The notes beneath the pieces are model-generated. The model ran no database searches. It worked only from the letters and a program-made list of their open reading frames with translations, and was not told the origin of the DNA. The position numbers were made by a program, and so were the translations under genes. From Hyphomicrobiales bacterium (lineage in GTDB: Bacteria; Pseudomonadota; Alphaproteobacteria; Rhizobiales; Methyloligellaceae), in NCBI GenBank assembly GCA_003228955.1, contig QIGN01000163.1, positions 1-43,891 on the forward strand: a DNA stretch of 43,891 nt, read 5' to 3'. Below, one piece after another: positions 9,818 through 40,018 of this stretch. Positions within the stretch are counted from its first letter, which is position 1. The number at the start of each line of letters is the position of its first letter.

Positions 9818-9898
9818 CCCGGGCACCCGCTCCCCCTTGCCCAGCCACCCCGTAATGGGTCCCTTGGGGTGGTTCTGTATGATCGGGAAATGCTCTAG
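9818..9898. repeat. Partial copy of the dispersed palindromic repeat plus a CTAGAGC-type end
   Basis: Bases 9818-9874 match 32644-32700 at about 86 percent by eye over 57 bp, including the CCACCCC / GGGGTGG core around a 14-nt loop. Beyond the core the right arm is not palindromic here. It continues into GTATGATCGGGAAATGCTCTAG, whose complement (CTAGAGCATTTCCCGATCA) is a familiar end of intergenic palindromes in Hyphomicrobiales. The CTAG at 9895-9898 contains the TAG stop of the leftward DUF937 gene. The element fills the convergent gap after ubiG and could serve both transcripts as a weak terminator. Confidence 0.6.
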
Positions 9899-10560
9899 CG
9901 GCGTCCGCCCAGTATGGATTCGAAGATATCGTCCATGGCCGATCCGTCGCCGTCCGCGTCGAACATCGAGCCGAAGATGTCGGCGCCGCGCGTCGGCATG
10001 TTGCCGGGCGCATTCGGTGTTCTTGAATCCAGCGGCGTGCCGCTCAGGATGTCCGAGAGCGGCCCGAAAGGATCGTTGCCCTGCTGCGGGCGCGGCGCGC
10101 TCTGGCCGCCGCCCAGAACCTGCCCGAGAATATCGCCAAGCGGGTTCTGGCCGTTCTTGAACAGCGCGCCCATGACCATCGAGGCGATATAGGGCAGCAT
10201 GGCTTTGAGAATATCGGAGCCGATGCCGGTCTGCTGCGCGGCGCGGTCGGCCACCGCGCGGCTCACATCCTTGGAGCCGAACAGGTTGCCAAGAATATTA
10301 TCGCCATCGGTTCTCGCACCGTCGTCGTTGAAGATATTACCATTATCGTTATAGCGGGCGTGCCGGCCGCCTCCCAGTGCGCCCAGCAATGCGCCCAGAC
10401 CCTCGCTGGTCTCGGTGTTGCGCTTCAATCCGGAGGAAAACGCCGGGAGAAGATTGCGCAGCGCCGCCGCGCTTTGCTGTTCGTCAAGGCCGAAACGCTG
10501 GCCCAGATTCGCCATTGCCTGGCCGCCCTGGGCGGCGGAAATCATGTCGTAAAGATTCAT
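9895..10560 (-). CDS. DUF937 domain-containing protein
   Basis: The product is about 221 aa from MNLYDMISAAQGGQAMANLGQRFGLDEQQSAAALRNLLPAFSSGLKRN, which is the typical DUF937 opening. The central part (DILKAMLPYIASMVMGALFKNG) is a second conserved DUF937 segment. The C-terminal third is Gly/Asn/Pro/Asp-rich and probably disordered. No signal peptide or enzymatic motif is visible; family function is unknown. I chose ATG 10560, with AGGACC upstream, because the longer frame to 10623 adds non-homologous residues. It converges on ubiG, with the dispersed repeat between. Confidence 0.85.
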   Translation of the reverse strand: MNLYDMISAAQGGQAMANLGQRFGLDEQQSAAALRNLLPAFSSGLKRNTETSEGLGALLGALGGGRHARYNDNGNIFNDDGARTDGDNILGNLFGSKDVSRAVADRAAQQTGIGSDILKAMLPYIASMVMGALFKNGQNPLGDILGQVLGGGQSAPRPQQGNDPFGPLSDILSGTPLDSRTPNAPGNMPTRGADIFGSMFDADGDGSAMDDIFESILGGRR

Positions 10561-10665
10561 TGGTTTGGTCCTGCTTTCTGTCCCGGCAAATCCCGGTTCG
10601 CCGGAAAATTTCCGGGCGATCATAGTCCCATTCCGGGAGCAAGAAAAATATTTTGAGGCCTGACC

Positions 10666-11112
10666 CTAAATGGAGGACGCCTCGCCCGCCATGGCGGCGT
10701 CCCATTGCCGCCACTCGTAAACGACCGCCGCCGCGGCGATAACCACGCCAAAAGCCGCGACATAAATTCGAATCGGTTCAAAATAGGTGAGCAGCAATTC
10801 GCTGCCGAAAACCAGCAGCAGGATCTGGTTGCAGACCGGGCAGGCGATGCCCACGAACCCGATCACACCTCCGGTTCCGATCGTCTTGTTGGAACAGAAG
10901 GGGCGGCGGATCGCCACATAGAGGCCGGTCAGCAGCGCGAGCGCGGCCAGCAGGAATATCTCCCAGCCCCCCGCAGGCGTCATCCGGATGAAAAACGGAT
11001 TTTCCCAGACGGCGGCGACCGTTCCGAGCAAAACAAACGCCGCCACCGCGACGCCCAGGCCGGTGCCCGCCTGTTTGAAGCTGATCTGCTGAATGTATTC
11101 GCCTGCCGGCAT
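10666..11112 (-). CDS. Small membrane protein with CPVCN motif
   Basis: The 148-aa product has about four membrane helices (about 18-38, 50-68, 83-107, 115-133). A cysteine-containing loop, RRPFCSNKT (Cys73), is followed at the start of the third helix by GIACPVCNQI (Cys91 and Cys94), a thioredoxin- or metal-site-like CxxC. I know similar CPVCN-bearing membrane proteins, mostly from actinobacteria, without an assigned function. It starts 18 bp after the ferric-reductase-like gene with a GGGGGAGAT ribosome-binding site, so the two form an operon. Thiol redox, metal or heme handling for its partner is plausible inference. Confidence 0.65.
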   Translation of the reverse strand: MPAGEYIQQISFKQAGTGLGVAVAAFVLLGTVAAVWENPFFIRMTPAGGWEIFLLAALALLTGLYVAIRRPFCSNKTIGTGGVIGFVGIACPVCNQILLLVFGSELLLTYFEPIRIYVAAFGVVIAAAAVVYEWRQWDAAMAGEASSI

Positions 11113-11130
11113 ATCTCCCCCTTCAGGTCT

Positions 11131-11928
11131 TCAGCGCGACAGCGTGAACTGGGCCGGTGGAGCAACGGAGCCTTCACCCGAGTCCCACGAGTCCGATTTG
11201 CGCCCTGATTTGCGTTTCAGTCTCCAGGTCTTCACGAAGGCGGCAAACTGAAGCAGGGAAACGAACAGGATCAGCCCGACAAAGGGCCACTGCGCCCAGT
11301 TCGGATCCGGTGTGTTCCGGTGATAGTCCAGAAAGTTCATATAGAGGAAATACGCCGTGTGAATGACAATCAGCATCCACAGGACATAGGCGCTCTGCTG
11401 AAGGAATTTCCAGACCGGCCCGCCGAGCACCCGCTGGCTCCAGTCGTTGGAGGCGAGCGCCAGGACAATACTGTAAAGCAGAGCGACGATGCCGATCACG
11501 TTGGCCAATCCAAACCCGTGCTTGACCATGACGTAAGTGCCCTTCAGCGGGTGGTATTCGAAGCCGAAAAGCCGCGCCAGGTCCCAGTCGACCCAGCCGA
11601 CAAGAATGATGGCCGTATGGATAATCGCCAGCAGGACGCCGTAGATGCCAATCTCCCGCCGCCAGGGGATGGCTTTGCGGAATATCGCCGACAGGCGGGC
11701 CAGCGGCCCAATGGACATGGATATGGCGACCAGTATCACGCTCATGTCGCCGATCGCCCTGTTCCAGCGGTGCATATCAGACCATTGCGCGCGCGATTCC
11801 AGGAATGCGTATGTCCCGAGGACGGAAATAAGCAGCACGAGAAAGTGCCGGGATTTCCACCCCAGGCTCCATCGTCTCTTGGGCTTGCCTGAAATTCCGG
11901 AAGATTCGTTGCTAACCGTCTGGCTCAT
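11131..11928 (-). CDS. Ferric reductase-like transmembrane heme protein
   Basis: The 265-aa product has a cytoplasmic basic N terminus (KRRWSLGWKSRHF) and about six to seven membrane helices. Histidines lie within or near helices at His104 (AIIHTAII), His137 (VMVKHGFGLANVIG) and His190 (LIVIHTAYFLY), the layout expected of b-heme ligands in the ferric-reductase-like / MsrQ superfamily. There is no FAD or NAD domain, so electrons must come from a partner. It heads a two-gene operon with the CPVCN protein. The ribosome-binding site is GAGGTACA. A tandem operator-like repeat lies 56-108 bp upstream. It is not next to msrP, so assignment as MsrQ is not supported. Confidence 0.75.
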   Translation of the reverse strand: MSQTVSNESSGISGKPKRRWSLGWKSRHFLVLLISVLGTYAFLESRAQWSDMHRWNRAIGDMSVILVAISMSIGPLARLSAIFRKAIPWRREIGIYGVLLAIIHTAIILVGWVDWDLARLFGFEYHPLKGTYVMVKHGFGLANVIGIVALLYSIVLALASNDWSQRVLGGPVWKFLQQSAYVLWMLIVIHTAYFLYMNFLDYHRNTPDPNWAQWPFVGLILFVSLLQFAAFVKTWRLKRKSGRKSDSWDSGEGSVAPPAQFTLSR

Positions 11929-11983
11929 TGTACCTCGCGCTCAGAAAAATATCGTTCTTTTACCGCTGTTCCGCGCCCGTTGT

Positions 11984-12036
11984 GCAACTATGTATGGCGA
12001 TACTGTGGCTTGCAATTATGTATAGCGACATTGTGA
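11984..12036. promoter_or_regulatory. Tandem direct repeat upstream of heme-protein operon
   Basis: Two 25-bp units, 11984-12008 and 12012-12036, share 20 positions; all five differences are transitions. The core is TATGTATRGCGA, and the units start 28 bp apart. They lie in an AT-rich 165-bp gap just upstream of the leftward gene starting at 11928. On the minus strand the unit contains CGCTATACAT or CGCCATACAT, which could include a -10 element. A binding site for a regulator of the operon is the simplest reading. Confidence 0.4.
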
Positions 12037-12093: not shown

Positions 12094-13365
12094 TCACGAT
12101 CCCTTCTCTCTGGCGATTCTGAGCGATGTGATTTTGTTGCGGTGGCGGCGCAGCACCTCGAAACGGAAGCCATCGAATGAAAAGGTCTGGCCCGGCTGCG
12201 GGATGGTCTGTGCCTTGTGAATCACGAGGCCCGCAACGGTGGTGGCCTCGTCTTCCGGCAATTCCCAGTCCTTGGCGCGGTTCAGATCGCGCGTCGGCAC
12301 GGAACCTTCGACCTGTACGCTGCCGTCCGGCATCGGCCGTATGCCGCTCTCCAGCTCGTCATGCTCATCGGTGATCTGTCCGACGATTTCCTCCAGTATG
12401 TCCTCCAGCGTCACCAGCCCCTGCACCTCGCCATACTCGTCCACGACCAGGGCGAAATGACTCTTGCGGCGCAGGAACGCATTGAGCTGCGCCCTGAGCG
12501 AGGTCGTATCGGGCACGAACCAGGGCGCGGTCGCGAGCGCCGGCACATCCAGCTTCGACAAATCCTCCCCCGCTTCGCGCACCGCCTTCAGCAGCGTCTT
12601 GGCGTGCAGGATGCCGACGATGTTTTCCGGCTCTCCGCGCCACAGAGGCAGGCGCGTATAGGGGCTGCCCAGCGCCTGGTCGACAATCTCGCCCGGGCTG
12701 TCATCCGCATTGATGGCGTGCATCCTGGTACGGTGGATCATAACGTCCTCGACCTCCATATCCGTCAGGTCAAGCACGCCGTCGAGCATGTCCCGGTCGT
12801 GTTTGATGAGCGCGCGGTCCCTGTGATGGAGTTCGATTGAACTGCGCAGCTCGTCATGGGCCGATAGAACCGCGGCATCCTCCCCGACCCTGGGTCCGAA
12901 CAGGCGGAAAAAGAGGCGCACTATCATCTGGACCGCATATGTCACCGGCCCCAGCAACGCGACAATCAGTGCGATGACTGGCGCCACCGCCAGCGCGGCG
13001 CGTTCGGGATTGGTTATGGCGTAGGTCTTCGGCATGACTTCACCGAAAACGAGCACCAGCGCCGTCATGGTGAGCGTTGCATAGACGATACCGGCCTCGC
13101 CGAAGACGGCCAGGAACAGGCTCGTCGCCAGCGCGGAGGCGAGAATATTCACCAGATTGTTGCCGAGCAGAATAGCGCCGATCAGCTTCTCCGGCTTGTC
13201 CCTGAGCGCGTTCACCAGCCCGGCGCGTTCCGAGCCTTCCTGCGCCAGCGCGTGCATACGCGCGCGCGACGCGGCGGTCAGCGCCGTTTCCGAGCCGGAA
13301 AAGAACGCCGAGATAATGACGAGCACGCATATGGTGCCGAGAAGAAGAGCAAGTCCGAGGGTCAT
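12094..13365 (-). CDS. CNNM/CorC family transporter-like protein (HlyC/CorC)
   Basis: The 423-aa membrane protein has an N-terminal DUF21/CNNM domain with four helices (about 1-170, including FFSGSETALTAASRARM and LLGNNLVNILASALAT). Two CBS domains follow (about 205-330, with VMIHRTRMHAI and SHFALVVDEYGEVQGLVTLEDILEEIVG). A C-terminal CorC_HlyC domain (about 345-420) ends with FSFDGFRFEVLRRHRNKITSLRI. The family is linked to Mg/Co efflux or resistance; older hemolysin labels are misleading. Its ATG overlaps the aroB stop (ATGA), so it is translationally coupled to aroB, an arrangement common in alphaproteobacteria. Confidence 0.92.
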   Translation of the reverse strand: MTLGLALLLGTICVLVIISAFFSGSETALTAASRARMHALAQEGSERAGLVNALRDKPEKLIGAILLGNNLVNILASALATSLFLAVFGEAGIVYATLTMTALVLVFGEVMPKTYAITNPERAALAVAPVIALIVALLGPVTYAVQMIVRLFFRLFGPRVGEDAAVLSAHDELRSSIELHHRDRALIKHDRDMLDGVLDLTDMEVEDVMIHRTRMHAINADDSPGEIVDQALGSPYTRLPLWRGEPENIVGILHAKTLLKAVREAGEDLSKLDVPALATAPWFVPDTTSLRAQLNAFLRRKSHFALVVDEYGEVQGLVTLEDILEEIVGQITDEHDELESGIRPMPDGSVQVEGSVPTRDLNRAKDWELPEDEATTVAGLVIHKAQTIPQPGQTFSFDGFRFEVLRRHRNKITSLRIAREKGS

Positions 13366-38852: not shown

Positions 38853-39031
38853 GCGAAGCCTCGGGCGGCGCCTCAAAGTTATCCCGCTCTCGTCACAACT
38901 TTTCCGAAAACGTTTGCTAGGCTGCTCTACATGTGGCCGAATCGCTTCCATATTCGTGTTGTTTCAGGCCTTCCGGAATTGTGGCGCGTACATCCGGAAT
39001 TGCCGGCGATTCCAACTCGACGAGGCTAGTC

Positions 39032-40018
39032 ATGATCACACGACGCCGGGGGATTGCAGGCTGGCCAGGACCAGCCAGGCCGGGAGGCCCGCATCCGGGG
39101 CGCAAACTGCCATTTCGCTCCCGCCTTCTCCGCCCGCCGCTTATGGGCAGGCGCGCACCGGCGAAAATCTATGGGCGGATTGGCAATCTGGAAGTGCGCC
39201 TTGCACGCTCCAGGAGCGATATAAGACGCGCGCAGAGGCTGCGGTATCACGTCTTCTACGAGGAAATGTCGGCGATCCCCGACGCCCTTGCCACGATGTC
39301 GCGGCGTGACGAAGACCCCTTCGACGCCATATGCGATCATCTGCTGGTGCTGGATCACGGGGCCGGTCCCAGGGGCCGCAGGCCCTGGCGGCGGCCGCGC
39401 GTTGTCGGCACATACCGCATTCTTCGACAGGACGTGGCCGAGATGCATGACGGGTTCTACAGCCAGGGCGAATACGATATCGCCGCCCTGATCTCGGCCA
39501 CTGGTCCGAAGCGCCGCTTCATGGAACTTGGCCGCTCATGCGTGCTCAAGACCTACCGCGGCCGCCGCACCATCGAGTTGCTCTGGCAGGGTGTCTGGAG
39601 CTATGCGCGCGAACATGGCATCGACGTTCTGCTCGGCTGCGCAAGTTTCGAGGGCGCCGATCCGCGCCGCCACGCGCAGGCACTGAGCTTCCTGCATCAC
39701 AACGCCCTGGCGCCGGCCCGCTGGCGGGTCAGGGCCCATGACGGCATCGGTGTGGATATGAATATGCTGCCAGAGAAAAAAGTCTGCGCGCGCACGGCGA
39801 TAAGGGAGCTGCCGCCGCTCATCAAGGGGTATCTGCGGGTCGGGGCTTCGGTTGGCGAAGGGGCGGTGATCGATCATGAATTCGGCACCACGGATGTATT
39901 TATCATTCTGCCCGTGGAATCCATCGATCCGCGCTATTTCGCCCATTTCGGAGCACCAGATGAATTCAGCCAGGGTGAATTCGGACAGGCCCCGCTCGAT
40001 TCGGGCCGGCTCAACTAG
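39032..40018 (+). CDS. olsB: GNAT-fold N-acyltransferase, OlsB-like (ornithine lipid synthesis)
   Basis: The product is about 328 aa. After a basic N terminus, the acyltransferase domain (about 55-200) opens GRIGNLEVRLARSRSDIRRAQRLRYHVFYEEMSA, the pattern of OlsB and hemolysin-like acyltransferases. VVGTYRIL, FMELGRSCVLKTYRGRRTIELLWQGVWSYAREHGIDVLLGCASFEG and the C-terminal IKGYLRVGASVGEGAVIDHEFGTTDVFIILPVE follow. OlsB links a 3-hydroxyacyl chain to ornithine; no olsA is nearby, so substrate is inferred from family. GAGG lies 7 bp before ATG 39032. The TAG stop is in a CTAG that opens a palindromic element. Confidence 0.8.
   Translation: MITRRRGIAGWPGPARPGGPHPGRKLPFRSRLLRPPLMGRRAPAKIYGRIGNLEVRLARSRSDIRRAQRLRYHVFYEEMSAIPDALATMSRRDEDPFDAICDHLLVLDHGAGPRGRRPWRRPRVVGTYRILRQDVAEMHDGFYSQGEYDIAALISATGPKRRFMELGRSCVLKTYRGRRTIELLWQGVWSYAREHGIDVLLGCASFEGADPRRHAQALSFLHHNALAPARWRVRAHDGIGVDMNMLPEKKVCARTAIRELPPLIKGYLRVGASVGEGAVIDHEFGTTDVFIILPVESIDPRYFAHFGAPDEFSQGEFGQAPLDSGRLN

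Follow-up and report, generated by a model that had tools for sequence, protein, structure and literature searches.

MsrQ (YedZ), the heme subunit of the periplasmic methionine sulfoxide reductase MsrPQ, is a short membrane protein with a ferric reductase domain (FRD) and no flavin domain of its own, and free flavin or a quinone has been proposed as its electron donor. The mercury transporter MerT takes Hg2+ from MerP. Apart from MsrQ, few of the short FRD proteins of bacteria have been given a function (PMC11031084; PMC3591440). Short FRD proteins have been described in which Arg and Gln replace the two ligands on the cytoplasmic side, leaving the surface-side heme (Zhang et al., PMC3591440), and the heme ligands of SpNOX share a spacing of 13 residues (PMC11031084). 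Here we describe a locus at which the gene for a short FRD protein (the heme protein) lies beside the gene for a small membrane protein with a CPVCN motif (the CPxCN protein). We found no published description of this pairing in the open-licence literature.

Results

The Heme and CPxCN Genes Are Adjacent in Several Genomes

The window (the whole stretch of DNA analyzed, 43,891 nt) comes from a 2.96-Mb genome of 194 contigs whose relatives and tree neighbors are alphaproteobacterial. Its heme and CPxCN genes lie on the minus strand, separated by 18 nt, a spacing that suggests co-transcription (Table 1). Both reading frames, and Cys73, Cys91, and Cys94 of the CPxCN protein, are where the initial annotation had placed them. 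Because homologs of the two proteins (58–77% protein identity) are encoded side by side in other genomes, we regard both reading frames as true genes. The pair is flanked by a DUF937 gene and a CNNM/CorC-type gene, and we know of no link between either of these and redox. Elsewhere in the window, positions 38933–40015 encode an ornithine lipid synthesis acyltransferase of the OlsB type that scores above the curated cutoff.

Table 1. Positions of the features discussed (window coordinates unless a locus is named)
Feature	Position	Strand	Evidence or comment
DUF937 gene	9895-10623		flanks the pair
CPxCN-protein gene, 148 aa	10666-11112	minus	four hydrophobic segments; family alignments
CPVCN motif codons (residues 91-95)	10828..10842	minus	C, P, C, N invariant in 27/27 aligned members
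Cys73 codon	10894..10896	minus	conserved in the alphaproteobacterial clade only; alignment
Heme gene (ferric reductase domain), 265 aa	11131-11928	minus	PF01794 match; conserved in 8 paired genomes
His190 codon	11359..11361	minus	predicted heme ligand, TM5 (= E. coli MsrQ His164); profile alignment
Gln177 codon	11398..11400	minus	13 residues ahead of His190; replaces third canonical FRD histidine; alignment, PMC3591440
His104 codon	11617..11619	minus	predicted heme ligand, TM3 (= E. coli MsrQ His91); profile alignment
Arg91 codon	11656..11658	minus	13 residues ahead of His104; replaces first canonical FRD histidine; alignment, PMC3591440
Two 25-nt direct repeats (TGCAAYTATGTATRGCGAYAYTGTG), 28 nt apart	11983..12035		just upstream of the heme gene
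CNNM/CorC-type gene	12094-13365		flanks the pair
GCA[ST]CG-motif protein genes	L015 5420-5983; L017 5382-5921; L040 3429-3983; L041 3399-3947; L042 637-1173		beside DsbA

The initial annotation had suggested checking whether the two genes co-occur elsewhere. They are adjacent in at least eight genomes and in both gene orders: in the window genome, Bacterium BMS3Bbin10, the isolates B33T3L11, OFTM192, and B64T3L14, and on plasmids of Tabrizicola, Neotabrizicola, and Gemmobacter. On these three Rhodobacterales plasmids, the gene order is reversed and the reading frames overlap by 4 nt. (G007/L004 and G003/L006 are identical sequences, and each was counted once.) In a tree of CPxCN proteins, the paired sequences clustered and two label changes were needed. 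Each gene also occurs without the other. CPxCN genes with no adjacent heme gene were found at six loci (L007, L009, L010, L011, L012, and L019), and relatives of the heme protein without a CPxCN partner were found on Phaeobacter and Marinovum plasmids, in G185, in Bacillota and Deinococcus, and in one haloarchaeon. The metagenome-assembled isolate B64T3L14 (L008 and L009) has two CPxCN paralogs, one paired with a heme gene and one unpaired.

The direct repeat upstream of the heme gene was found nowhere else in the genome, even when 3 mismatches were allowed. A single copy is present upstream of the heme gene of the relative G007, and the repeat is absent from six relatives. It may be a regulator site, possibly a private operator.

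The Heme Protein Is Predicted to Bind a Single Heme

The heme protein matches the Ferric_reduct family (PF01794; E = 2.1e-8; 34.7 bits against the Pfam cutoff of 28) and is the only PF01794 protein in its genome. It has no flavin domain, as had been noted before, and an NAD domain is likewise absent. Six histidines (H28, H53, H104, H137, H190, and H203) are kept in the paired heme proteins. When 12 relatives were aligned, H28, H53, H104, and H190 were kept in all, and H137 and H203 were lost in Bacillota or Deinococcus relatives. The arrangements R91-x12-H104 and Q177-x12-H190 were invariant in the same 12 sequences. Three histidine ligands had been proposed at the outset; of the six conserved histidines, only H104 and H190 match the heme ligands of the FRD superfamily, and a third ligand was not supported. 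The score of E. coli MsrQ in our first profile was circular, as MsrQ was inside that profile; the ligand mapping was repeated without MsrQ, and it held. Because the Arg91-x12-His104 and Gln177-x12-His190 arrangements fit the published pattern of short FRD proteins (PMC3591440), we predict that the heme protein carries one b-heme near its periplasmic side.

Assignment of the heme protein to MsrQ was tried and rejected (24.5 bits against the NCBIfam equivalog cutoff of 130). The msrP gene of the genome is on another contig and has no MsrQ gene beside it. On contig C35 of G000 (L080, 2138-3100), an orphan msrP is followed by two further genes, one on the opposite strand for a metal-sensing regulator resembling CsoR and one for a copper-type P-type ATPase.

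The CPxCN Family Is Probably a Distant Relative of MerT

We aligned 27 CPxCN proteins from alphaproteobacterial, actinobacterial, Thermomicrobium, and haloarchaeal sources and found seven invariant residues: G30, R43, C91, P92, C94, N95, and P113. The cysteine conservation expected from the initial annotation was thus found for the CPxC pair, but a role for Cys73 across the family was not supported, as this residue is confined to the alphaproteobacterial clade. The CxxC had also been placed at a membrane face; by sequence, it lies inside the third hydrophobic segment and not clearly at a face. AlphaFold2 models (pLDDT 50 and 47, from 7- and 5-sequence alignments) were too poor for placing the CPxC. 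No Pfam or NCBIfam family matched the CPxCN protein, and neither the window protein nor any of 15 family members matched the DsbB, VKOR, or DsbD/CcdA Pfam models. PDB sequence searches returned nothing significant, and searches of phage records gave no match.

A few alphaproteobacterial genomes encode homologs of the CPxCN protein, and so do plasmids from alphaproteobacteria, actinobacteria, and Thermomicrobium and many from haloarchaea; the actinobacterial and haloarchaeal counts were taken from plasmid records. The family is rare in Pseudomonadota. There was one other match among 289 genomes of the class, and among 299 genomes of the phylum it was present only in the window's genome, besides weak matches that were nearly all MerT proteins. 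(One match of the phylum survey, L031 in G488, covered the N-terminal part only and was left out of the relatives.) The family had seemed mostly actinobacterial, and lateral transfer had been raised on that ground. Haloarchaeal plasmids, too, commonly carry family members. Recent transfer from Actinobacteria is not supported, as the alphaproteobacterial proteins form their own clade, set apart in the tree from both the actinobacterial and the haloarchaeal proteins (support 99/96), and share about 23–28% identity with the actinobacterial ones.

Most of the weak phylum matches adjoin genes for MerR-type regulators; 11 of the matches were aligned, and every one of these matched Pfam MerT. In hhalign, the 15-member CPxCN alignment matched these MerT-like sequences with a probability of 93.9, a value that is partly circular since the set had been found with the same profile. 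For this reason the comparison was repeated with independently found MerT proteins. The 27-member CPxCN alignment scored 41.8 (E = 4.6e-6) against them, with reversed and unrelated controls at or below 27.5; the 15-member alignment scored 27.3, which is not above control noise. In direct searches, Pfam MerT (PF02411) gave no match for the window protein, and of 15 family members one matched, at E = 0.35, which is below the cutoff. No mer genes (merR, merP, or merA) were seen beside CPxCN genes at the loci viewed. The profile comparisons make it probable that the CPxCN family is a distant relative of MerT. Haloarchaea also encode another unnamed membrane protein, which has a GCA[ST]CG motif and whose gene lies beside DsbA and usually beside the CPxCN gene as well, between the two; by profile it resembles the CPxCN family (score 40.1; Table 1).

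Neighboring Genes Share a Theme of Thiols and Copper or Sulfur Stress

In the window, the pair has no thioredoxin-fold gene next to it. The Rhodobacterales pairs have as neighbors three cytochrome c genes, a gene for a DsbA with an ScsC N-terminal domain, and genes for L,D-transpeptidases and penicillin-binding protein 2, and a copper ATPase is encoded at the edge of the stretch at two of the three loci. The plasmid island at L013, L014, and L043, in which the pair is combined with these L,D-transpeptidase, penicillin-binding protein 2, cytochrome c, and ScsC-like DsbA genes, has the look of a gene set for copper tolerance of the envelope. In Azospirillum and Indioceanicola, the CPxCN gene overlaps a DsbA gene by 4 nt; in haloarchaea, it is found one gene after DsbA; and in Actinobacteria, it is beside thioredoxin and CcdA, or TlpA. 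A thioredoxin-fold (DsbA/thioredoxin) gene was present within ~4 kb of the CPxCN gene at 14 of 20 plasmid loci, a raw count with no matched background. The loci with none nearby were those of Sinorhizobium, Halomicrococcus, Rubrobacter, Thermomicrobium, and two Rhodococcus. Several records place relatives of the heme protein close to genes for copper or other metals, and on Phaeobacter plasmids relatives with ~62% identity are accompanied by a copper P-type ATPase. The shared theme of these neighborhoods is extracytoplasmic thiol and copper or sulfur stress.

Discussion

A Tentative Model for the Pair

Our leading interpretation, which we hold with somewhat less than even confidence, is that the two proteins make up a redox module of the inner membrane, in which a relay of intramembrane cysteines, linked to heme, serves ScsC/DsbA-like partners during thiol or copper stress. 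The heme protein would hold its b-heme near the periplasmic side, between His104 and His190. Lacking a flavin domain itself, it would need an outside electron donor, and it may exchange electrons with a cytoplasmic or membrane carrier such as free flavin or a quinone. The CPxCN protein would be a helix bundle resembling MerT, in whose third hydrophobic segment a proline-flanked pair of cysteines is embedded, and it would link the heme, by thiol-disulfide exchange, to ScsC/DsbA-type proteins with a thioredoxin fold outside the cytoplasm. In this way, those proteins, or their copper- or sulfur-stressed clients, would be kept in the correct redox state. Characterized FRD proteins donate electrons outward, and so we slightly favor a reductive flow toward the periplasm. 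That the heme protein binds heme, that the two proteins form a complex, that thiols react, and which way electrons flow are what we infer, as is the partner used in the window genome, where no thioredoxin-fold gene adjoins the pair. In a more specific proposal, electrons pass directly between a STEAP-type cytochrome b and an intramembrane, MerT-related CPxC protein, which then reduces or oxidizes ScsC/DsbA-type proteins; such a relay would offer another route beside DsbD/CcdA and DsbB, with components unrelated to theirs, and we consider it possible and rather doubtful.

The relay is supported by the conserved pairing, the STEAP/YedZ-type heme pattern, the thioredoxin-fold neighbors of the CPxCN family, the copper neighborhoods of the heme-protein relatives, the invariance of Arg43, CPxCN, and Pro113 across bacteria and archaea, and the status of the heme protein as the sole PF01794 member of its genome. 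Against it count the absence of a thioredoxin-fold gene beside the pair in the window, the occurrence of each gene without the other, and the ordinary DsbB retained in the genome, which means that the pair is not the sole thiol route; in Actinobacteria, moreover, the CcdA encoded beside thioredoxin probably already supplies electrons. The initial annotation had suggested transmembrane electron or thiol transfer. Its two refuting conditions, a failure of the genes to co-occur elsewhere and a lack of conservation of the histidines and cysteines, were checked, and neither overturned the core idea. The DsbA/thioredoxin, CcdA, DsbD, and cytochrome c neighbors in relatives fit this suggestion, but so would a transfer of metal, since the relationship to MerT and the presence of copper islands agree equally well with metal handling.

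If the pair handles metal, a STEAP-like protein would reduce cupric or other metal ions at the periplasmic face, and a MerT-like cysteine conduit formed by the CPxCN protein would move the reduced ion (e.g., Cu+) from a periplasmic chaperone across the membrane. The profile similarity to MerT points in this direction, as do the Rhodobacterales pairs inside copper islands and the Phaeobacter relatives beside a copper ATPase, although plasmids are biased toward metal genes and MerT's adjacent Cys-Cys is replaced by CPxC. A Caulobacter ScsC protein is reported to bind Cu(I) (PMC8900818), which would also suit a metal role. Most CPxCN neighborhoods, however, offer a thioredoxin-fold or sulfur gene and not a MerP-like metal-binding domain. 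We favor the thiol relay ahead of a metal reductase with its conduit, which we regard as possible but doubtful. A different substrate, sulfane sulfur (persulfide), is suggested by the genes for metallo-beta-lactamase-fold hydrolases, rhodanese, DsrE, TusA, TauE, and YeeE/YedE near CPxCN genes in Azospirillum, Indioceanicola, Haloprofundus, Streptomyces, Rhodococcus, and Arthrobacter. The CPxCN protein would then move or reduce sulfur species with a thioredoxin-fold partner, and the heme protein would drain electrons to the respiratory chain; the pair itself was not seen next to any sulfur gene, either in the window or in the paired relatives, and we think this explanation unlikely.

The remaining explanations separate the two proteins. 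An MsrP is present in the genome (408 bits; cutoff 207) with no MsrQ encoded beside it, and the heme protein, as its sole PF01794 member, could be an MsrQ-type donor for this orphan, with the CPxCN gene as a passenger. The conserved pairing is with the CPxCN gene instead, however, and the MsrQ model gives 24.5 bits against its cutoff of 130. In addition, the relatives G005 (85% complete), G010, and G116 have MsrP and no PF01794 match was found in them, which indicates that MsrP needs no PF01794 protein there and makes a simple MsrQ role unlikely; we give this explanation little credence. It is less probable still that the two genes are neighbors without a joint function. That each is also found alone is consistent with such a view, but they adjoin each other in either order and in two distinct groups of alphaproteobacteria, and their reading frames can overlap.

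Comparison with Known Systems

One close known counterpart of the heme protein is MsrQ, which it resembles in being a short FRD protein without a flavin domain, and its His104 and His190 align with MsrQ His91 and His164. It differs from MsrQ in having Gln177 in place of His151 and in the position of its gene, which adjoins the CPxCN gene and not msrP. With STEAP and the short bacterial FRD proteins (PF01794; PMC3591440), it shares Arg and Gln at the cytoplasm-side sites and the two retained histidines, the single-heme pattern; STEAP2-4 have an NADP domain, which the heme protein lacks. Its best NCBIfam match is MamZ, whose C-terminal ferric-reductase-like domain aligns over ~140 residues (E = 5.5e-12). 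The large N-terminal part of MamZ is absent from the heme protein, and the score of 44.9 bits is below the NCBIfam equivalog cutoff of 650. Since so little function has been assigned to short bacterial FRD proteins apart from MsrQ, the conserved pairing is useful in making one of them testable.

In both the CPxCN protein and MerT (PF02411), a helix with a cysteine site is followed by an (E)P-x-R/K-x segment and then by the next helix. The CPxCN protein differs in having CPxC where MerT has adjacent Cys-Cys, and in carrying extra N-terminal helices. If the metal reading is true, the two proteins would be a bacterial reductase-plus-conduit pair with a logic analogous to that of eukaryotic metalloreductase-transporter systems. 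If the thiol relay is true, it would be a new route from membrane electron carriers to extracytoplasmic thiols, via heme and not via quinone or cytoplasmic thioredoxin, and would give a first role to an unnamed family common to alphaproteobacteria, actinobacteria, and haloarchaea. Such a relay would resemble ScsB/ScsC and CcdA/DsbD in tying an intramembrane cysteine pair to extracytoplasmic thioredoxin-fold proteins, and in its connection with copper stress. The CPxCN protein has no detectable sequence relation to CcdA/DsbD, and it differs from both of these systems in being linked, in the paired lineages, to a heme protein.
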